Origin: an uncultured Chryseobacterium sp.
Lineage (GTDB): Bacteria; Bacteroidota; Bacteroidia; Flavobacteriales; Weeksellaceae
Assembly: GCA_913777465.1 (NCBI GenBank)
Contig: CAJYRQ010000073.1
Location: 1 to 49,530, forward strand
Direction of reading: 5' to 3'
Length of the DNA: 49,530 nucleotides
In this document: piece by piece, positions 709 to 44,978 of the stretch
Layout of the letters: every line of letters starts with the position of its first letter
Numbering within the stretch: the stretch's first letter is position 1
Notes under the pieces: generated by a model
What the model was told of the DNA's origin: nothing
The model's database searches: none
The model's input: the letters and a program-made list of their open reading frames with translations, nothing else
Made by a program: the position numbers and the translations under genes

Positions 709-2640
709 ATGAAATACATCTTTTTAATCATATTCTTTCTCAGCCTTCCCATTCAGGCGCAGGTGGTAAACAAGACCGATTCCAATCAGCTTCCCAAAGA
801 AGATACCTTGGTGGTGGATTCGGGAAAGAAGGACTCCCTGAAAATATTTAAGCCGACCATCAATGATTACCTGTACCAGAAGCAATTTTCAGAGAAAAAG
901 GTTTTTGATACGGTGATGACTTTTGATAAGACCTATATCTTTTCGCAGTATAACAACCGGGATAATTTCGGAAGGGCCCAGGTGGCTAACATTGGGGCGG
1001 GATTCAATCCGCTGACGTATGAAGTCATTCCAGAACAGAACCTGGCTTTACTCCCGACCAATAAATCCTATTGGATTCTTGGGGTTGACGATATCAATTA
1101 TTACGATGTCAAAACACCGACCGCCACCTTCATTTACCATAATGCAATGAAGAACGGAGCGGCTTTAAAATCCATGTATACCCAAAACATCGGCAAGCGT
1201 TTCAATTTTTCTCTGGAATACAGCGGACTGCGCTCGCAAGGGATGTACAGGAACTCGCTGGCTTCCAACAACAATACCTTATTTACGGGGCATTACGTTT
1301 CAAAAAAAGGAAACTATGAATTGTTTGCGCATTACCTGCACCAGAATGTCAACAATCAGGAAAACGGAGGGATTGCGGTAGACAGCCTTTTCCAGCAGGG
1401 AGATACCAACTCAAGGAACCGGCAGAACATGCAGGTCAACCTCGCGGCTTCAAGTTCGCAATTTTCTTACAGAAGATATTATCTGACGCATCAGTTTGCG
1501 CCGTTCAACTCAGAAAAAATTCCTTTCAAAATACGGCATACGATTTCTCATCAGGGAAACAAGTATTACTACAGCCAGAACGCACCGGAAGCCTATTGGT
1601 ATGATGCTCCGCAGCAGCTGGTGACCGACGGGCCGCTCAGTTCAAGAAAATATTCGGATAACCTAAGCAATACGGTAAGCCTGGTTTGGGATAATGAAAA
1701 ATTTAAGCTTGACGCAGGCGTCCGGTATCAGATGCTGAAATTCGGAACCACGGCAATCAATTTGCCATTGTTGCAGATTCCGACCGAGATCAAGGAAAGC
1801 CGGCTCGGAGCAGTCGGAAACTTACAGGTGAAGCTTTTCAATAAAATCCAGCTGAATTCGTTCCTGGAATTTTCAAACGGAAGCCAGTTCGGTACCTATC
1901 TGAAAACAACCAACAACTTAAAGTTCGAACCGGTGAAAGATTACTTCGTCAACGCGAAGGTGAATTTTCAGAGTGCGTACCCGTCATTCAACTACATCCT
2001 GAATACATCCGTTTACAACAATTACAATTATTACCTTCAGAATGCCCAGAATCAGACGGTTTCGGAAATCGGGGGAAGCTTGGGGTTAAAATGGTTCAGA
2101 ACGGAACTCTTTGCCAACTATTACAGAATCGACAATTATACCTACTTCGACTCCAATGCAATGCCGCAGCAGAGTGGAAACCCGGTGAATATTTCGCAGA
2201 TCGGAGGTGATGCCACATTCAGCTATGGCGATTTTCATCTCAATGTAAGACTGCAGTTCCAGAATGTTTTAACCAATAAAGACCTGTTGCCACTGCCTGG
2301 ATTCATCGGCCGTGCCAATTTCTTTTATCAGACCAAAGCATTTAAAAAAGCAGCGGAAATCCAAACCGGAATCAAGGTGTATTATTTCTCGAAGTTTGCC
2401 TCAAGAAGATATTTCCCGATCCTTAACGAATATATCCTGCCGGATGCCAATTCATTTTCAATCGGCGGGCAGCCCATTGCCGATATCTATTTCAATATGA
2501 AAGTAAAAAAAATGTTCTTCTTTATCGAGGGGCAGCAGGTCGGGACTTTCCTTTCACACAACAAAGCTTATGCATTTCCAAGTTATCCTGTGTACGACTT
2601 CAGGCTGAATCTCGGGATTGTATGGTATTTGTTCAACTAA
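709..2640 (+). CDS. Putative outer-membrane porin (PF14121-like family)
   Basis: This is a 643-residue predicted beta-barrel protein of the outer membrane. The N-terminus is a clear signal peptide: a hydrophobic stretch followed by IQAQ, so cleavage is likely near residue 18. The rest alternates short aromatic-rich strands with polar turns, carries many Tyr, Asn and Phe, and ends in an aromatic-rich segment (WYLFN), as beta-barrels often do. Length and composition fit the 'putative porin' family common in Flavobacteriia; what it transports is unknown. The next gene, bshC, starts 12 nt downstream, so the two are likely co-transcribed. The ATG at 709 is chosen because the signal peptide starts there. 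Confidence 0.8.
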   Translation: MKYIFLIIFFLSLPIQAQVVNKTDSNQLPKEDTLVVDSGKKDSLKIFKPTINDYLYQKQFSEKKVFDTVMTFDKTYIFSQYNNRDNFGRAQVANIGAGFNPLTYEVIPEQNLALLPTNKSYWILGVDDINYYDVKTPTATFIYHNAMKNGAALKSMYTQNIGKRFNFSLEYSGLRSQGMYRNSLASNNNTLFTGHYVSKKGNYELFAHYLHQNVNNQENGGIAVDSLFQQGDTNSRNRQNMQVNLAASSSQFSYRRYYLTHQFAPFNSEKIPFKIRHTISHQGNKYYYSQNAPEAYWYDAPQQLVTDGPLSSRKYSDNLSNTVSLVWDNEKFKLDAGVRYQMLKFGTTAINLPLLQIPTEIKESRLGAVGNLQVKLFNKIQLNSFLEFSNGSQFGTYLKTTNNLKFEPVKDYFVNAKVNFQSAYPSFNYILNTSVYNNYNYYLQNAQNQTVSEIGGSLGLKWFRTELFANYYRIDNYTYFDSNAMPQQSGNPVNISQIGGDATFSYGDFHLNVRLQFQNVLTNKDLLPLPGFIGRANFFYQTKAFKKAAEIQTGIKVYYFSKFASRRYFPILNEYILPDANSFSIGGQPIADIYFNMKVKKMFFFIEGQQVGTFLSHNKAYAFPSYPVYDFRLNLGIVWYLFN

Positions 2641-2652
2641 AATTTTACAGCG

Positions 2653-4239
2653 TTGAAAACGATTAATAAAATATCTTTTCAGAATATAGAAAGCATTCCT
2701 CAATTGATAAAGGATTTTCTGAATCATGATATTGAGGGTTTTGAAGAATCCACCTTTTCTTTGGATCATTTCAGAAAACAGATTCACAAAAAGCAAAATT
2801 CTTTTACGGAAGAGCAGAGACATATTTTAGCGGATGCCTTGGAAAAACAGTTAGCGCATCTTAACCTCTCGTCAAAACAGAAGGAAAATTTAAGTCATCT
2901 CAGACTTTCAAATACATTTACGATCACCACCGGGCATCAGCTCAACCTGTTTTCCGGGCCTGTTTTCTTTGTATATAAAATTTTACAGACCATTAAAACC
3001 GGCTCCTATTTAAAACAGAATTTTCCTGATTTTAATTTCGTTCCGGTTTACTGGATGGCTTCCGAGGACCATGATTTTGCGGAAATCAACCATTTCAAAA
3101 CGGAGTCCGGTTTTTATGAAACCAACGAAAAGTCGGGAGGAGCGGTAGGAAGAATCACTATTAACGATACCTTTTTTATTTCTGAATTTGAAAAGGAATT
3201 TAAAGACTATGTTTTCGGTACCGAACTGATCTTAATGCTGAAAGAAGCTTATAAACCCGGCAATACCTTAACGGAAGCCATCAGGATCTTAGTCAACAGA
3301 CTATTCTCAGAATTCGGATTGCTGATCCTGGATGGAGATTCAAAAGACCTGAAGACACAGATCAAAGAAACCTTTAAAGATGAGCTTCTCAATTTCAGTC
3401 TTCATGAAAATGCTCAAGATCAAGTCAACTTCCTTACGGAGAAATACGGGAAAGTTCAGGTCAACCCGCGTGAAATCAATTTATTCTACCTTTCCGATAC
3501 CCGGGACCGGATTGATTTCGATGGCAAAAAATACATCCTTGTAGATAAGAATATTTCCTTTACGGAAGATGAAATTATAAATGAACTGAACAATCACCCT
3601 GAAAGATTCAGCCCGAATGCATTGATGCGTCCGGTATACCAGGAAACTATTTTACCGAACCTGGCATACATCGGGGGAAATGCAGAAATCATGTACTGGC
3701 TGGAACTGAAAGACTACTTTTCAAAAATTAATGTTCCGTTTCCTGTCCTGATTCCCCGGAATTCCATGCTGTTTCTAAAGGAGAAAACAGTAGGGAAAAT
3801 CCAAAGGCTGGACCTGAAGATCGAGGACTTTTTCCGGAATTTTACGGCCGTTACCAACAATAAGATCCTCGAAAACAATGCTGTTCTTGAAGCATTGGAG
3901 CAAAAGGAAAACTTACTGACCAGGCAGTTCTCGGAATTAAAAGCCCTGGCAGAAACGACCGAAAAATCTTTCGGCAATATGGTGAAGGCGGAAGAAGTAC
4001 GGCAGCTGAAATCTTTTAAAAGAATGAAAAAGCGGCTGCTCCATGCCGAAAAAATAAAAAGAAGCGAACTGCTCGAAAGGCTGGAAAACTTATTTTTAGA
4101 AGTAAACCCATCGGGCAACTGGCAGGAAAGAGTCTATAACTTCAGTGTTTTCTTTGCAGACCACGGTTACTCGTGGCTGGAAACTTGTTTAGAAGAAATG
4201 CAAATTGAGGAGTCCAAACTAATAATAGTTGCCATTTAA
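2653..4239 (+). CDS. bshC: Bacillithiol biosynthesis cysteine-adding enzyme BshC
   Basis: BshC is believed to catalyse the last step of bacillithiol synthesis, adding cysteine to glucosaminyl-malate to make the low-molecular-weight thiol of many Bacillota and Bacteroidota. The 528-residue length is typical. Recognisable family segments are the TGHQLNLFSGP motif near residue 95 (the nucleotide-binding-like N-terminal core), the VYWMASEDHDFAEI segment near residue 135, and a C-terminal helical coiled-coil region (about residues 390-470). The start is a TTG at 2653, 12 nt after the porin stop; no ATG lies nearby. No other bacillithiol genes are in the window. Promoter elements for the next gene lie within its last codons. 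Confidence 0.93.
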   Translation: MKTINKISFQNIESIPQLIKDFLNHDIEGFEESTFSLDHFRKQIHKKQNSFTEEQRHILADALEKQLAHLNLSSKQKENLSHLRLSNTFTITTGHQLNLFSGPVFFVYKILQTIKTGSYLKQNFPDFNFVPVYWMASEDHDFAEINHFKTESGFYETNEKSGGAVGRITINDTFFISEFEKEFKDYVFGTELILMLKEAYKPGNTLTEAIRILVNRLFSEFGLLILDGDSKDLKTQIKETFKDELLNFSLHENAQDQVNFLTEKYGKVQVNPREINLFYLSDTRDRIDFDGKKYILVDKNISFTEDEIINELNNHPERFSPNALMRPVYQETILPNLAYIGGNAEIMYWLELKDYFSKINVPFPVLIPRNSMLFLKEKTVGKIQRLDLKIEDFFRNFTAVTNNKILENNAVLEALEQKENLLTRQFSELKALAETTEKSFGNMVKAEEVRQLKSFKRMKKRLLHAEKIKRSELLERLENLFLEVNPSGNWQERVYNFSVFFADHGYSWLETCLEEMQIEESKLIIVAI

Positions 4240-16067: not shown

Positions 16068-19000
16068 GTGTTAGATCAAATCATACAATTCAGTATCAGA
16101 AACAAAATCGTTGTTGGGATCATGACGTTGCTTCTGATCATCTGGGGCATCTGGAGTGCTTCCCGGTTACCCATTGATGCAGTACCGGATATTACCAACA
16201 ATCAGGTACAGATCATCACCTCCTGCCCCGCTCTGGCAGGACAGGAAGTCGAACAGCTTGTCACTTTCCCCATCGAACAGAGCATTGCCAACATCCCCGA
16301 TATCGAAGAAACCCGAAGCATTTCCAGGTTCGGGCTGTCGGTGGTAACCGTTGTTTTTAAAGAAAACGTCGATATCTATTTCGCCCGCCAGCTGATTAAT
16401 GAGAAATTGAAAGAAGCGGCAGAAGAAATTCCCAAAGGAACCGGAACACCGGAGCTGGCGCCGGTAAGCACCGGGTTGGGCGAAGTTTACCAATATATTC
16501 TGCATCCGAAAAAAGGAAGCGAAAAAAAGTACGATCCTAAAGAACTCCGCAGCATGCAGGACTGGATAGTCAGAAGGCAGCTGAACGGTACGCCCGGAGT
16601 GGCGGAGGTCAACAGCTTCGGAGGGCAGTTAAAACAATATGAAGTCGCGATAGATCCCAACCGGCTGAGAGCCATGGGCGTAAGCATCACGGATATTTTT
16701 ACGGCACTGGAAAAAAACAATGGGAATACCGGTGGTGCCTATATCGATAAAAAGCCAAATGCCTATTTCATCCGGGGGATCGGGATCGTAAAATCCCTGA
16801 AGGACATCAGTAATGTTCCGGTAAAAAATGAAACGGGCAGTGTCCCGATTTTTATCAAAGATGTCGCTGAGGTCCGCCTGGGAAGTGCCGTCCGGTATGG
16901 AGCCATGACGTATAACGGAAAGGTAGATGCCGTAGGAGGGGTCGTGATGATGCTGAAAGGCGCCAACAGCCATGAAGTCGTCAATAGCATCAAAGCTAAA
17001 ATTCCGGTCATCCGGAAATCCCTTCCCGAAGATGTGGTGATTGAGCCGTTTCTCGACCGGACGGATCTGGTAGGAAGAGCCATGAAAACTGTTGAGAAAA
17101 ACCTCATCGAAGGGGCTTTGATCGTCATTTTCGTGCTGGTGGTTTTCCTTGGAAACCTGAGGGCAGGACTCATCGTAGCTTCAGCCATTCCGCTTTCCTT
17201 ATTATTTGCTTTGGGGATGATGAACGTTTTCGGCGTAAGTGCTAATTTAATGAGCCTCGGCGCCATCGACTTCGGTTTGATTGTAGACGGCGCGGTCATC
17301 ATTGTGGAAGCCACCCTTCATAATTTGGGACTGAGAAAATCCACGCAGAAGCTTACCCAGACGGAAATGGATGAAGAGGTTTTCCTTTCTGCCTCAAAAA
17401 TAAGAAGCAGTGCGGCTTTCGGGGAAATCATCATCCTGATCGTCTATATTCCAATCCTTACACTGGTGGGCGTGGAAGGAAAGATGTTTACCCCGATGGC
17501 CAAAACCGTAGGCTTTGCGATTTTAGGAGCATTGATTTTATCATTGACTTATATTCCGATGATGAGCGCTTTGTTTTTATCTAAAAAAATACCGGTTAAA
17601 GAAACGTTTTCCGATAAAATGATGAAAAGGCTTCAACGGTTCTATCAGCCTTTACTCCGGAAAGCTATCAGGTTCAAATATGCTGTCGTTTCTGCAACGT
17701 TGGCCGTTTTTATCATTACGCTATTTGTTTTTAAAAACATGGGCGGCGAATTTATTCCGCAGCTTCAGGAAGGGGATTACGCCTTTCATTGTATTCTTCC
17801 GCAGGGGAGTTCTTTAAGCCAGAGCATCGAAACTTCCATGCAGGCCTCAAGGATCATCAAGCGCTTCGATGAGGTGAAAATGGTCATTGGGAAAACCGGT
17901 TCCGCAGAAGTACCCACCGACCCAATGCCGCCCGAAGCTTCAGATCTGATTATCGTCCTTAAACCACAGGATGAATGGAAATCCAAAAAATCATACGAAG
18001 ACCTGGCCGATGAAATAATGGAAAAGCTGGAGGTCATTCCCGGCGTGTTTTTTGAAAAGAACCAGCCAATCCAGATGCGGTTCAATGAGCTGATGACCGG
18101 CGTCCGTCAGGATGTGGCTGTGAAGATTTTCGGGGAAAATCTGGATTCCTTATCCGTATATGCGGATAAAGTCGCAAAAACAATTCAGACTGTAAAAGGA
18201 ACGACGGCTCCGCAGATCGAACGCATCAGTGGGCTTCCGCAGATCAATGTGGAATACGACCGGACACGCATGGCCAATTATGGGCTGAATATTGAAGAAG
18301 TTAACGATGTCTTAAGCATAGCTTTTGCCGGGAAAAGTGCCGGGCAGGTGTTTGAAAATGAAAGGCGTTTTGATCTGGTGGTCCGCCTCGACAGCCTCCA
18401 CCGGACGAATATTGACGATGTGAATAACCTGATGATTGCCACGGCTTCAGGAACCCAGATTCCGCTTTCCCAGGTTGCCGATATCAGTTATAAACTGGGT
18501 CCGGCACAGATCAGTCGGGAGGAAGGGAAGCGCAGGATCGTCATCGGGTTTAATGTAAAAGACCGGGACGTGGAAAGTGTAGTAAAGGATATCCAGGCGA
18601 AACTGGATCAGGTAAAATTGCCTTCGGGTTATTACTTTACCTATGGCGGGCAGTTTGAAAACCTGCAGGCAGCCAGCAAAAGACTGATGATTGCCGTTCC
18701 GGTTTCCCTGCTGCTGATTTTCATGCTGCTGTATTTTACCTTCCGTTCCTTTAAGCAGGCAGCTTTTATTTTCACTGCTATCCCGATGAGTGCCATCGGA
18801 GGGATTTTTGCACTAGTCATCAGAGATATGCCGTTCAGTATCAGTGCAGGAATCGGATTTATTGCCCTGTTCGGCGTAGCGGTGCTTAATGGCATTGTAT
18901 TGATCGGAACTTTTAATGAACTGGAAAAAGAAGGGGAAAAAGATATCCTGCAAAGGGTGCTTGAAGGAACGAAGATCAGACTGCGGCCGGTGCTGATGAC

Positions 19001-20426
19001 GGCTACCGTTGCTTCTCTGGGCTTTTTACCGATGGCTGTCTCTACGGGTGCCGGAGCGGAAGTTCAGAAACCGTTGGCGACTGTGGTAATCGGTGGTCTG
19101 GTGACAGCGACTTTCCTTACCCTGTTTGTGTTGCCTATGCTGTATCTTATTTTTAATAACGGAATTTCATGGAAGAAGCGGAAACCAAAACCAGTGACGA
19201 CGGTCTTTGTTCTGGCTTTTATATTTTCCGGTCAGGTGATGAATGCACAGGCAAGATCCGTTTCCATTGAACAGGCGATGGACCTGGCTGCCGGCAATCA
19301 TTTAAACATACAATCGAAAAACTTAAGCATCCAATCGGCGGAAGCTTTAAGAGGAACGGCGAAAGAACTTCCGAAACTTAATTTCGACGCCCAACTGGGG
19401 CAATATAACAGCCCGAAATTCGACCAGTCGTTTTCCGTTTCCCAGAGCATTCCTTTCCCGACATTATTTAAAGCAAGAAAAGAATTGATTGATGAAACCA
19501 TCAGGAGCCGGCAGATTGATAAAGAAATTACGTTGAATGAACTGATGAAGCAGGTTCGGACGTATTATTATCAGATTGAATATCTGCAATACAACCAATT
19601 GAAGCTGAAAAGCCTCGACAGCCTGTACCAGGATTTCATAAGAATTGCTACCGTAAGATTTAAGGCCGGAGACATTAAGAAAATTGAAATCAACACCGCA
19701 GAAACCCAAAAAGGCGAGATCGGTCTTTTGCTGAGGCAGAACGAAGTCTATCTGAAGAATGCCTACAACAGCTTACAGATCCTTTTAAATACTTCTGAAA
19801 ACGTTGAGGTTCCATTGAACAGAAACTATGAACCTCTGAAAGCGTTTAATGTATTGGACAGTACGGCAATTAAAAATAATCCTACCGTAAAATCCTTTTA
19901 TCAGGAAATGGAAATCGCGGAGAAAAGCAAAAACGTTGAAAAATCTCAGGGACTTCCGGAGTTCAGTATAGGCTATACGAACCAGTCGCTGATCGGCTTT
20001 CATACACGGAACGGACAGGAGCGGTTTTACAATTCGGGAGACCGGTTTCATTCCGTAACCTTAGGGGTTGCGATCCCGCTGACGTTCGGGGCTACAAAAG
20101 CAAGGATACAATCTTTGGAATATCAGAAGCAATCGGCAGAAGCCAATGCCCGGTTCCGGGAAAAACAGCTTTCCATTCAGCTTAAAAACGCATGGAGCCA
20201 GTATGAACAGGACGTCCTGCAATATAATTATTACATGAAACAGGCCATCCCGAATGCTGAAAAAATTGTAAAAGCGGCTCAGTTAGGCTACAAAACAGGC
20301 GAAATTTCCTATGTGGAATACCTTTTCGCTTTACGGACTGCCACCGACATCCAGCTGAAATATTTGGAGTCCATTCAGCAGGTCAATCAATCGGTTATTC
20401 TCATTAATTTAATCATCAACAAATAA
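16068..20426 (+). CDS. CzcA-type metal efflux RND pump fused to a TolC-like channel
   Basis: This 1452-residue fusion should expel divalent metal ions (Zn, Co, Cd class). Residues 1 to about 1035 are a complete heavy-metal RND pump. It has a first membrane helix after the N-terminus, porter segments (PDITNNQVQI, LINEKLKEA) and TM4 with DFGLIVDGAVIIVE, whose Asp401, Asp407 and Glu413 are the proton-relay residues of the CzcA subgroup. DPMPPEASD lies at about 625. After the last pump helices comes a hydrophobic, signal-peptide-like stretch ending in VMNAQA. Then, from about 1060 to 1452, a TolC-type outer-membrane efflux domain with long coiled-coil helices follows. The GTG at 16068 is used. 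The adaptor gene follows after one base. Confidence 0.9.
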   Translation: MLDQIIQFSIRNKIVVGIMTLLLIIWGIWSASRLPIDAVPDITNNQVQIITSCPALAGQEVEQLVTFPIEQSIANIPDIEETRSISRFGLSVVTVVFKENVDIYFARQLINEKLKEAAEEIPKGTGTPELAPVSTGLGEVYQYILHPKKGSEKKYDPKELRSMQDWIVRRQLNGTPGVAEVNSFGGQLKQYEVAIDPNRLRAMGVSITDIFTALEKNNGNTGGAYIDKKPNAYFIRGIGIVKSLKDISNVPVKNETGSVPIFIKDVAEVRLGSAVRYGAMTYNGKVDAVGGVVMMLKGANSHEVVNSIKAKIPVIRKSLPEDVVIEPFLDRTDLVGRAMKTVEKNLIEGALIVIFVLVVFLGNLRAGLIVASAIPLSLLFALGMMNVFGVSANLMSLGAIDFGLIVDGAVIIVEATLHNLGLRKSTQKLTQTEMDEEVFLSASKIRSSAAFGEIIILIVYIPILTLVGVEGKMFTPMAKTVGFAILGALILSLTYIPMMSALFLSKKIPVKETFSDKMMKRLQRFYQPLLRKAIRFKYAVVSATLAVFIITLFVFKNMGGEFIPQLQEGDYAFHCILPQGSSLSQSIETSMQASRIIKRFDEVKMVIGKTGSAEVPTDPMPPEASDLIIVLKPQDEWKSKKSYEDLADEIMEKLEVIPGVFFEKNQPIQMRFNELMTGVRQDVAVKIFGENLDSLSVYADKVAKTIQTVKGTTAPQIERISGLPQINVEYDRTRMANYGLNIEEVNDVLSIAFAGKSAGQVFENERRFDLVVRLDSLHRTNIDDVNNLMIATASGTQIPLSQVADISYKLGPAQISREEGKRRIVIGFNVKDRDVESVVKDIQAKLDQVKLPSGYYFTYGGQFENLQAASKRLMIAVPVSLLLIFMLLYFTFRSFKQAAFIFTAIPMSAIGGIFALVIRDMPFSISAGIGFIALFGVAVLNGIVLIGTFNELEKEGEKDILQRVLEGTKIRLRPVLMTATVASLGFLPMAVSTGAGAEVQKPLATVVIGGLVTATFLTLFVLPMLYLIFNNGISWKKRKPKPVTTVFVLAFIFSGQVMNAQARSVSIEQAMDLAAGNHLNIQSKNLSIQSAEALRGTAKELPKLNFDAQLGQYNSPKFDQSFSVSQSIPFPTLFKARKELIDETIRSRQIDKEITLNELMKQVRTYYYQIEYLQYNQLKLKSLDSLYQDFIRIATVRFKAGDIKKIEINTAETQKGEIGLLLRQNEVYLKNAYNSLQILLNTSENVEVPLNRNYEPLKAFNVLDSTAIKNNPTVKSFYQEMEIAEKSKNVEKSQGLPEFSIGYTNQSLIGFHTRNGQERFYNSGDRFHSVTLGVAIPLTFGATKARIQSLEYQKQSAEANARFREKQLSIQLKNAWSQYEQDVLQYNYYMKQAIPNAEKIVKAAQLGYKTGEISYVEYLFALRTATDIQLKYLESIQQVNQSVILINLIINK

Positions 20427-43328: not shown

Positions 43329-43352
43329 AAAGTGAGCCGGCAGACTCACTTT
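43329..43352 (-). terminator. Orphaned terminator of the bacteriocin-like gene
   Basis: AAAGTGAG and CTCACTTT (8 bp) with an 8-nt loop. On the minus strand it is followed by seven T. Without the IS it would lie 11 nt downstream of the stop codon of the peptide gene now ending at 44248. Confidence 0.8.
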
Positions 43353-43365
43353 ATTTTTTGATTAA

Positions 43366-44248
43366 GAGCTTGTTTAAAAAAGAAATTTAGAAATAAATTG
43401 TAAAATAAGCCAGTCAGTTGGAACTTTGTATTTCACCACAAAATCAGAGTTCATGACAAAGAAATATCTTCGCCTGACTGACCGGCAGTGGCAAGTTATG
43501 GAAAAATTTTTACCTGTTAAAACAAAAGGCCATTATGCTTTACGTGATTTGATTGATGCTATATTTTGGATTCTCCGTACAGGTTCCCAATGGCGTAATC
43601 TTCCTGAAAATTTCCCGAAATGGGAAAGTATTTATTATCATTTCCGTAAATGGGGTAAAGATAGTACTTTGGCCAGATTAAACGCGATGCTTAATAAAAT
43701 GGAAAGAAAGCGTCAGGGAAAACAACAGACTCCGAGCCTTCTTTCCATTGACAGCCAGAGTATTAAGTCGGGGCCCTTAACCAAGCTGGAAAAAGGGGTT
43801 GACGGTAACAAGAAAATTAATGGAAGGAAACGTCATGTGATCACCGATACCTTAGGGCTGATCTGGGGTGTAAAGGCAGGTCCGGCCCATCAGTCAGACG
43901 GACACATAGCAAAGGATGTTGTTGAACCTCTGCTGGGCTATCTTCACCGGATAAAAAAAATCCTGGGTGACCAAGCCTATAAAAAAGGATTTATTGATTG
44001 GGTTAAAGAGCATGTCATAGGACTGGAAGTTGAGATCTCTTCTGCTCCCCCATCAGAAAAAGGATTCGTTCCTTTAAAGTGGAGATGGGTTACGGAAAGG
44101 ACTTTTGGGACTTTCAATTTCTTCAGACGGCTGGATAAAGACTATGAAAAGACACCTGAAAGTCAGGAATATTGGATATTATGGCAGAATTGTCAAATTA
44201 TCCTCAATAAAATCGGATAAATAATACAAATCTTTTTTAAACATACTC
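43366..44248 (+). mobile_element. IS5-family insertion sequence, 883 bp
   Basis: The ends are visible. The left end GAGCTTGTTTAAAAAAGA (43366-43383) and the inverse of the right end, GAGTATGTTTAAAAAAGA (44231-44248), match at 16 of 18 positions. A 3-bp target duplication TAA flanks both ends (43363-43365 and 44249-44251), as in IS5-family groups that target TNA. One intact DDE transposase gene fills the element. Nothing suggests decay, so it looks recent and probably functional. Confidence 0.9.
43453..44220 (+). CDS. IS5-family DDE transposase
   Basis: This 255-residue transposase has the N-terminal helical domain of IS4/IS5 proteins (LTDRQWQVMEKFLPVKTKGH, then AIFWILRTGSQWRNLPENF). The catalytic domain has LLSIDSQSIKSGP (first Asp, about residue 99), a KRHVITDTLGL segment, LGDQAYKKGF (second Asp, about 175), and the terminal Glu in WRWVTERTFGTFNFFRRLDKDYE. 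The ATG at 43453 is preferred over an in-frame TTG at 43426. The frame is unbroken from the left to the right repeat. Confidence 0.93.
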   Translation: MTKKYLRLTDRQWQVMEKFLPVKTKGHYALRDLIDAIFWILRTGSQWRNLPENFPKWESIYYHFRKWGKDSTLARLNAMLNKMERKRQGKQQTPSLLSIDSQSIKSGPLTKLEKGVDGNKKINGRKRHVITDTLGLIWGVKAGPAHQSDGHIAKDVVEPLLGYLHRIKKILGDQAYKKGFIDWVKEHVIGLEVEISSAPPSEKGFVPLKWRWVTERTFGTFNFFRRLDKDYEKTPESQEYWILWQNCQIILNKIG

Positions 44249-44493
44249 TAAGGCTGTATTAAAGCAGGAGCTCCGATTTCCGTCGACGGGCAGACTCCTG
44301 TATTCATTATACATGTTCCTCCCATGCAGGTATAATTTGTCATTGAGGAAGTTCCGTCAGAGCACATGATTAATGCCTCTCCATAATGGGCACACTCACT
44401 GTTGGAATAGCATTCTAAGGCAGGATACAGTGTCCCGCCAAAAACATTTTTAAGATCTTCTCTTGAAAGTTTAATTGCGCTTGAATTTTTCAT
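44248..44493 (-). CDS. Bacteriocin-like six-Cys peptide with Gly-Gly leader, stop codon remade by the IS
   Basis: This 81-residue precursor begins with a leader, MKNSSAIKLSREDLKNVFGG, ending in the double glycine recognised by C39-type bacteriocin export peptidases. The core (residues 21-81) has six cysteines at 28, 34, 44, 56, 61 and 68 and is rich in Ser, Thr, Gly and Met. I recall this leader type as 'bacteriocin-like protein' genes of Chryseobacterium. The IS element ends in its stop: the last IS base plus TA now reads TAG, while the sequence without the IS would read TAA, so the protein is unchanged. Its old terminator lies beyond the IS. Activity and any modification are unknown. Confidence 0.78.
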   Translation of the reverse strand: MKNSSAIKLSREDLKNVFGGTLYPALECYSNSECAHYGEALIMCSDGTSSMTNYTCMGGTCIMNTGVCPSTEIGAPALIQP

Positions 44494-44765
44494 GGAAATA
44501 CATTTTATGATTTGGTTTATTGTTCAACATTCTTGTAATGTGGTGTTTAAACAGATGTCTAAGATAGTAAAATAATCATAAAGTGAACTTCCTGTTTACT
44601 ATTTTGCTTTTGTTGTTTTTTCTGCAGCTTTACCCACAGATTGTTTATAACCTGGTAGTACTTTTGTATTAAAATAATATGTATATTTAAATCTCCATTA
44701 ATGGAATTGAATAGAGGTGTCCGAAAATCTTAGAGAGTAGGAAAAACAAAACCAAACTAACCATT
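44494..44765. other. Divergent control region between the two peptide genes
   Basis: AT-rich and without a gene. A plus-strand -7 box lies at 44659-44666 and a weaker one, TATATTTA, at 44682-44689. No good minus-strand box is seen; the closest is TATCTTAG (44561-44568). No palindrome stands out. Confidence 0.5.
44659..44666 (+). promoter_or_regulatory. Promoter -7 box of the second peptide gene
   Basis: TACTTTTG is an exact TAnnTTTG box. Its -33 TTG (44641) is only 15 nt upstream of the box. The leader would be about 94 nt, long for this window. Confidence 0.5.
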
Positions 44766-44939
44766 ATGAAAAATTTAAAAACATTAAACAGGAAAGCCCT
44801 GAAAGAAATTGCAGGCGGCGCTTATGAAAACTGTGAAGTTCCTTTAGAGTACGGAGTTTGTAACCCTGGTTATACCTTCTGCAGCAATCCTTATTGTTGT
44901 GTGCTTGCCCGTAAACCGTATATCTGTATTGATTACTAA
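44766..44939 (+). CDS. Bacteriocin-like six-Cys peptide with Gly-Gly leader (57 residues)
   Basis: This gene is easily missed because it encodes only 57 residues. The leader MKNLKTLNRKALKEIAGG is of the same kind as in the neighbouring divergent gene (Lys-rich start, Leu spacing, double Gly at 17-18). The core of 39 residues starts AYENC and carries six cysteines at 23, 32, 39, 44, 45 and 54, with several Tyr and Pro. The core sequence itself is unrelated to the neighbour apart from the cysteine count. It has its own promoter and a strong terminator. No C39 transporter, immunity or maturation gene is visible nearby. A disulfide-rich exported peptide is the simplest reading. Confidence 0.75.
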   Translation: MKNLKTLNRKALKEIAGGAYENCEVPLEYGVCNPGYTFCSNPYCCVLARKPYICIDY

Positions 44940-44946
44940 AAAAGAT

Positions 44947-44978
44947 ACAGGCTGTCCCGAATTCTGACAGCCTGTTTT
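44947..44978. terminator. Bidirectional terminator after the second peptide gene
   Basis: ACAGGCTGTC and GACAGCCTGT form a perfect 10-bp stem with a 9-nt loop, ending in TTTT. On the minus strand it is followed by a T-rich run and so also serves the convergent lipoprotein gene. Confidence 0.9.

Follow-up and report, generated by a model that had tools for sequence, protein, structure and literature searches.

A divergent pair of six-cysteine Gly-Gly leader peptide genes in Chryseobacterium, probably served in trans by an export and oxidation hub on another contig

Two divergent precursor genes

The window studied here, a 49,530-nucleotide stretch of DNA from an uncultured Chryseobacterium sp. 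(contig CAJYRQ010000073.1 of GenBank assembly GCA_913777465.1), contains in the interval 43329..44978 two divergent genes for small proteins with a lysine-rich leader that ends in Gly-Gly, here called pep1 and pep2. A prediction made from the DNA letters had described two such genes, encoding 81 and 57 residues, each with a Gly-Gly leader and six cysteines in the core. The coordinates and strands proved exact, and both the leaders and the cysteines were confirmed in the open reading frames (ORFs). The features of the pair are the following.

44248..44493, minus strand: pep1, a precursor of 81 residues (ORF, match to the leader model NCBIfam NF047798 below its cut-off, orthologous ORFs)
44434-44493, minus strand: leader of pep1, 20 residues, MKNSSAIKLSREDLKNVFGG, ending in Gly-Gly (ORF reading)
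44494..44765: divergent intergenic region of 272 bp (alignment of 14 sequences)
44711..44743, plus strand: DUF805b-type RNA (Rfam RF02914, typed cis-regulatory; 35.5 bits, E 2.1e-8)
44766..44939, plus strand: pep2, a precursor of 57 residues (ORF, match to NF047798 above its cut-off, orthologous ORFs)
44766-44819, plus strand: leader of pep2, 18 residues, MKNLKTLNRKALKEIAGG, ending in Gly-Gly (ORF reading)

In the ORFs, the core of pep1 comprises 61 residues and that of pep2 39 residues, each with six cysteines. The leader of pep2 matches NF047798 (leader_Chryseo) with 26.7 bits against a cut-off of 23.5 (E 4.6e-6), and pep1 stays below the cut-off with 20.1 bits (E 5.3e-4). We treat pep1 as a relative and do not file it as a member of NF047798. 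The model, named "bacteriocin-like protein," spans only 18 leader positions, and its existence means that the leader type is already known to annotators. The core, export, oxidation, and regulation of the peptides lie outside it. The pair scores 16.7 and 12.7 bits where NF047792, a putative CCPGW bacteriocin family, requires 80.

Conservation of the pair

Among 148 genomes of the genus, 88 contain a match to pep1 (E ≤ 1e-3; the weakest, in genome G131, has an internal stop) and 39 a match to pep2 (E ≤ 1e-6; those of G055 and G032 have an internal stop). Intact orthologous ORFs were recovered from 35 loci, and all six cysteines are retained in 29 of 29 for pep1 and 21 of 21 for pep2. In a second set of 24 named loci, six cysteines are present in 19 of 19 pep1 ORFs and in 23 of 24 pep2 ORFs. 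The carriers of pep2 in this set are Chryseobacterium and one metagenome-assembled genome of the Weeksellaceae. The sole exception is the frame-broken pep2 of locus L193 (6001-6159), which still has the DUF805b motif upstream. At L175, from Chryseobacterium like L193, there is no intact pep2 ORF, and the upstream motif is present.

The ratio of nonsynonymous to synonymous substitutions (dN/dS, by NG86) is 0.06–0.29 for pep1 in 11 pairs and 0.03–0.09 for pep2 in seven of eight pairs, dS being saturated in the eighth. Both genes lie on one contig in 30 of the 39 genomes with a pep2 match, and they are divergent in all 30, with a gap of 135–272 bp in 28 genomes and of about 1.9 kb in two. Twenty loci from relatives, selected for carrying pep1, pep2, or both, contain a pncB match in every case and a DUF5995 match in 16. 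The surroundings of the pair, its divergent order, and its cysteines are thus kept in relatives. The original prediction had proposed a search of related genomes for the leader and the six-cysteine pattern, with a lack of conservation as the outcome that would speak against it; both were found to be conserved.

Because the leaders match NF047798, the cysteines are retained, dN/dS is low, and the divergent order is fixed, both genes are confirmed as real precursor genes beyond chance, as far as sequence comparison can tell. A scan for sigma-70 promoters found 8 sites against 5.7 expected, and carries no weight here.

A dispersed set of precursors

In the genome from which the window derives (109 contigs, 95% complete), NF047798 has 47 matches at E ≤ 10, of which 34 have E ≤ 1e-3 and 32 exceed the cut-off. 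No match at E ≤ 1e-3 was found in 14 control genomes. As many as 45 of the 47 matches can be read as precursors, and the remaining two have E > 1. The suggestion that the pair forms a self-contained peptide locus could not be upheld, since pep1 and pep2 are two of about 45 dispersed precursors.

Every one of the 45 precursors has at least four cysteines. Six are present in 30 of them, four in 10, eight in three, and five in two, so that the number is even in 43. In one of the odd cases, the reading places a cysteine within the leader, which brings the count of even cores to 44 of 45. When the 288 distinct precursors from all fetched loci were grouped into 49 clusters, 48 had an even number of core cysteines; this is a consistency check, as many of these loci were fetched for carrying such peptides. 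Six is thus the most frequent cysteine number among these precursors, and it suggests three disulfides.

Runs of very short six-cysteine peptides with a C..C..CC..C..C pattern were also observed at L017 (1124-1650 with 1849-3054) and L026 (near 1501). These represent two places in the same genome, on contigs C101 and C5, both beside a putative mgtE magnesium transporter gene.

A proposed export and oxidation hub on contig C99

None of six window proteins scanned is a peptidase-ATP-binding cassette (ABC) transporter (PCAT), a transmembrane protein, or a thiol oxidoreductase. A single C39 domain was detected in the genome, on contig C99, where it belongs to a PCAT of 730 residues. Its domains exceed the Pfam cut-offs with 121 bits for C39, 104.9 for the ABC membrane domain, and 103 for the ABC ATPase. 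It had been predicted that maturation is encoded elsewhere and that the leaders are of the type found on bacteriocin-like, C39-processed precursors; the NF047798 matches and the transporter on C99 agree with both points.

The genes around the transporter, here called the hub, lie on one strand in the order HlyD adaptor, two leader peptides, PCAT, five leader peptides, and a 509-residue VKOR-DsbA protein. Beyond the latter, on the same strand, come genes for a pair of thioredoxin-like proteins and one further leader peptide. In 21 hub stretches (our own and those of 20 chosen relatives), PCAT and HlyD occur together in all 21, the VKOR fusion (≥44% identity) in 19, and at least one leader peptide recognized by pattern in 16. 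A sub-threshold match to the Flavo-1 RNA (35.4 bits against 42) was observed downstream of the hub HlyD gene at L082 (372-479, plus strand).

The VKOR-DsbA fusion exceeds the Pfam cut-offs for VKOR (39.2 bits) and for a thioredoxin fold (39.5 bits). Its cysteines were counted in the rows longer than 450 residues, 18 of 26 aligned. Cys-174, Cys-186, the pairs Cys-253/Cys-256 and Cys-365/Cys-368, and the DsbA CGFC motif are conserved in 18 of 18 rows, and the N-terminal domain (first 128 residues) is free of cysteine in all of them. In a single profile comparison with hhalign, residues 26-114 of this N-terminal part match the C39 domain of the PCAT at 89.8% (E 1.8e-6), and the controls HlyD and TlpA gave 0.3% and 1.3%. 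The N terminus of the fusion is therefore a candidate for a dead C39 domain that may bind leaders.

Co-retention of precursors and hub

At E ≤ 1e-3, 136 of the 148 genus genomes contain leader matches, with 1 to 48 in each and a median of 24; these counts are lower bounds, with at most 56 candidates scored per genome. The PCAT query matches 145 of the 148 genomes at E ≤ 1e-100, paralogs included, and 139 genomes respond to the VKOR query at E ≤ 1e-20. These 139 include every one of the 136 genomes in which leaders were matched, the weakest VKOR match among the 136 being at 7.7e-97. An ortholog of the VKOR fusion is missing in 10 of the 12 genomes that lack leader matches: VKOR gives no match at all in nine, and G052 has a distant match only (1.4e-36). 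In G052 and G142, PCAT and HlyD are kept and the VKOR ortholog is missing. The association between leader matches and VKOR gives a Fisher p of 6e-14, calculated with shared ancestry ignored. In a draw of 246 genomes from the family, leader matches (E ≤ 1e-4) occur in 104 genomes from 7 of 33 genera, and 13 of these 104 genomes fall outside the genus.

An RNA element upstream of pep2

The part of the intergenic region proximal to pep2 is the most conserved in the alignment of 14 sequences, and a nearly invariant stretch before pep2 corresponds to the DUF805b-type RNA, which ends 22 nucleotides before the ATG of pep2. The original prediction mentioned neither this RNA nor the insertion element described below. 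The window copy misses the RF02914 gathering score by 0.1 bit (35.5 against 35.6), and the copies upstream of pep2 in G020 and G030 reach 48.4 bits. It resembles RF02914 in its stem, its loop CCGAAAA, and its AGAGUAGG tail, and its outermost stem pair is non-standard. The motif precedes pep2 in 24 of the 24 named loci, and neither half of it was found in the 120 nucleotides upstream of pep1 at any of the 19 loci compared.

The predicted structure combines a 4-bp stem with a 3-bp pseudoknot (xCC with GGx') that shows covariation. In 40 copies, 36 of them distinct, the base before the loop CC can pair with the base after the tail GG in all 40, with six pair types, and shuffles average 25.6 of 40. 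Stem pairs 2–4 form in 40 of 40 copies and stem pair 1 in 32. The structure printed for RF02914 shows the stem only, and the copies here covary at an additional pseudoknot pair. Because this loop-tail pair covaries in all 40 copies, the alignment supports a predicted 3-bp pseudoknot over the DUF805b stem.

A covariance search of the genome with RF02914 gave 18 matches at E ≤ 1, of which 11 have E < 1e-6 and eight exceed the gathering score. At E ≤ 1 all 14 control genomes also match, none over the cut-off. Nine of the 11 strong copies lie about 17–22 nucleotides before the ATG of a leader peptide, two of these nine within the hub, and the remaining two precede a tail-collar-like protein and a 132-residue protein. 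By the covariance model, 9 of the 45 precursors have the RNA upstream; a regular expression found 7. Copies at E ≤ 1e-6 occur in 58 of 59 genus genomes, and genomes with more leader matches tend to have more of them (Spearman 0.77, with ancestry and genome size not controlled). In the 29 top-scoring loci of relatives, several of which are mutually orthologous, the RNA precedes leader-type peptides in 17, other Gly-Gly precursors in three, and other genes in nine. These classes were assigned by reading 42 translations.

The names of the other associated genes likewise come from reading translations. The RNA was observed before tail-collar-like proteins at L252 (1472-1506) and L295 (near 1501). 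At the remaining loci it also lies near 1501 and precedes the 132-residue protein at L259, 197-residue proteins at L270, L276, L278, and L289, a caspase-like protein at L271, exported-type proteins of 86–90 residues at L280, L287, and L290, and other Gly-Gly precursors at L288, L291, and L294. The DUF805b RNA was reportedly described by Weinberg et al. in 2017. A literature search, judged partly by title, found nothing on the function of the DUF805b RNA.

The presence of the RNA before other types of Gly-Gly precursor (L288, L291, and L294) agrees with a different view of the cores, in which they are substrates of an enzyme that modifies ribosomally synthesized and post-translationally modified peptides (RiPPs), such as a radical S-adenosylmethionine (radical SAM), ATP-grasp, or multinuclear non-heme iron-dependent oxidative (MNIO) enzyme, and not plain disulfide peptides. 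pep1 very weakly resembles TIGR04149 (E 0.56), and graspetide loci are reported from Chryseobacterium (PMC8939145). We consider this view very improbable. No such enzyme is among the six window proteins and six hub proteins scanned (the whole genome was not searched for these enzymes), and the even-cysteine statistics point to disulfides. TIGR04149 itself, a radical SAM RiPP type, was rejected as an assignment, with 10.1 bits for pep1 against a cut-off of 25 and pep2 unlisted at E ≤ 1.

Proposed mechanism and comparison with known systems

Taken together, the original interpretation is partly supported, and the data are best accommodated by a different arrangement. pep1 and pep2 are probably exported three-disulfide peptides that belong to a set of about 45 members served in trans by the hub on C99, with antagonism as their most likely role. 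This scheme starts from what is observed, namely gene content, conservation, the even-cysteine statistics, co-retention, and RNA covariation; docking, cleavage, oxidation, release, RNA control, and role are inferred. The lysine-rich Gly-Gly leader would dock on the C39 domain of the hub peptidase-transporter, which would cleave after Gly-Gly, and the ABC part together with the HlyD adaptor would export the core. The VKOR-DsbA fusion in the membrane would be brought in by its C39-like N terminus, which is predicted to be catalytically dead, and would oxidize the cysteines on the periplasmic side; the folded peptide would then be released. pep2 may additionally be controlled by the DUF805b-type pseudoknot RNA, in common with other peptide genes.

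The closest tested system is that of the bacteroidetocins, bacteriocins of Bacteroidetes for which a class IIf has been proposed (Coyne et al. 2019, PMC6671954). As reported there, bacteroidetocins A and B have a 15-residue leader and a 42-residue core with four cysteines, and deletion of the thiol oxidoreductase or transmembrane protein gene attenuates toxin activity, so that both proteins are needed for full activity. A Gly-Gly leader with a short cysteine-containing core, a C39 peptidase-transporter, a thiol oxidoreductase, a transmembrane protein, and the lack of an obvious immunity gene are common to both systems. Whereas the bacteroidetocin machinery and peptide are reported to share a four-gene region, the pair lies on another contig than its machinery, and this machinery would serve many precursors. 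The cores contain six cysteines here instead of the four of bacteroidetocins A and B, and the VKOR, DsbA, and C39-like parts are joined in one protein. Moreover, the bacteroidetocins are known by their toxin activity and the pair from its genes. Because the defining gene arrangement is lacking, the pair is not filed with the bacteroidetocins, though alike in outline. Antagonism of competing bacteria, in the manner of the bacteroidetocins, is a first guess at the role, made by analogy.

Our confidence in antagonism is only moderate because the EbfG1–4 proteins of Synechococcus elongatus show that Gly-Gly proteins with a shared exporter can serve a biofilm. According to the abstract (PMC4997328), the secretion of these four small proteins depends on one C39 transporter, PteB, and they enable biofilm formation. 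Several small Gly-Gly proteins and one C39 transporter are also found here; the biofilm role of EbfG1–4 differs from that guessed for the present set, and the abstract names no disulfide-forming partner. The same hub might therefore export peptides that act for the producer itself, in biofilm or matrix assembly, surface behavior, or signaling. The constant surroundings in relatives, the purifying selection, the lack of a recurring immunity-like neighbor, and the shared RNA element, which suggests co-regulation, agree with such a role. Against it, the cores are highly diverse, the precursors vary in number from 1 to 48 per genome, and pep1 or pep2 is missing in many genomes, all of which suggests products that are dispensable one by one. 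On balance we find a self-directed role plausible but less likely than not.

Several observations weigh against exported disulfide peptides with an antagonistic role. pep1 does not reach the cut-off of the leader model, and at E ≤ 10 the model also matches 8 of the 14 control genomes, in no case over the cut-off. A profile search for relatives of solved structure gave a single match for pep2 (E 0.5) and none for pep1, none of it credible. No immunity-like neighbor recurs within about 900 bp of 17 precursor loci of the genome, a survey in which ORF lists were judged by eye and with a simple hydrophobicity count. The C39-like match of the VKOR fusion comes from shallow alignments (effective number of sequences about 2) and covers only residues 26-114. 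The VKOR matches are partial or split in 3 of the 136 genomes with leader matches (G038, G062, and G087), and the Fisher test ignores the ancestry that these genomes share. G029 (L139) and G089 (L140) keep PCAT, HlyD, and VKOR without a leader match at E ≤ 1e-3; no leader peptide was recognized in the hub stretches examined, that of G089 being a 5-kb contig. Finally, strong purifying selection and a fixed address would be expected of a weapon and equally of a product with a housekeeping function.

A broader proposal is made more tentatively, with a confidence that falls a little short of even. Chryseobacterium and its kin may operate a single common station for dozens of diverse disulfide peptides encoded at unlinked sites, with the fused dead-C39, VKOR, and DsbA parts acting as a leader-guided oxidative folding partner of the peptidase-transporter. 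Nine of the 45 precursors, including pep2, would be switched together by DUF805b, a 35-nucleotide H-type pseudoknot RNA that in this genus would mainly control a secreted-peptide regulon. A search of the available literature found no paper joining the themes of VKOR, C39, bacteriocin, and disulfide, nor one on bacteriocin-like leader peptides of Chryseobacterium. With these results, the label "bacteriocin-like protein" becomes a testable pathway of one exporter, one fused oxidase, and about 45 products in a single strain. The pathway includes a predicted dead C39 domain with measurable leader binding, and its many disulfide-rich peptides, which would all be matured by the same machine, amount to a natural library. 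The Rfam DUF805b RNA gains a gene context, and its pseudoknot is open to compensatory mutation.

Neighboring elements

The remaining features of the interval are an insertion element and two hairpins.

43329..43352, strand not given: terminator-like hairpin (hairpin scan and comparison with relatives)
43366..44248, plus strand: IS5-family insertion element (family search and direct reading)
43426-44220, plus strand: transposase ORF of the IS5-family element (family search)
44947..44975, between pep2 and the lipoprotein gene: hairpin of 10 bp with a loop of 9 and a T tail (direct reading)

The IS5-family element occupies most of the interval 43329..44978. By direct reading, its ends, starting at 43366 and 44248, share 15 of the 17 outermost bases, and TAA flanks it on both outer sides (43363-43365 and 44249-44251). 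The element abuts the stop codon of pep1 and leaves the protein whole. A transposase match is absent from all 20 relatives' loci, and in three relatives the same hairpin as at 43329-43352 lies directly 3' of the pep1 stop. The element thus now separates pep1 from its terminator-like hairpin.

With pep1 parted from its terminator by the insertion at its stop codon, the window pair might be a relic that is weakly or not expressed, with activity confined to the remaining hub peptides. Many relatives lack pep1 or pep2, and pep2 is broken in some. We regard a relic as unlikely: the frames, the six cysteines, and the leaders are intact in the window, dN/dS is low in relatives, and the DUF805b RNA element has been retained.

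The lipoprotein gene at 44977 had been put forward as a possible partner of the peptides. This candidate was dropped; a homologue is present in just 5 of the 20 relatives' loci, in one of them as two short pieces. The hairpin at 44947-44975 parts pep2 from the lipoprotein gene. It is not listed by the hairpin scan, which has a loop limit of 8. Elsewhere in the window, an ORF of 1452 residues (16068-20426, plus strand) resembles, from reading its translation, a resistance-nodulation-division (RND) heavy-metal pump with a fused TolC-type tail.

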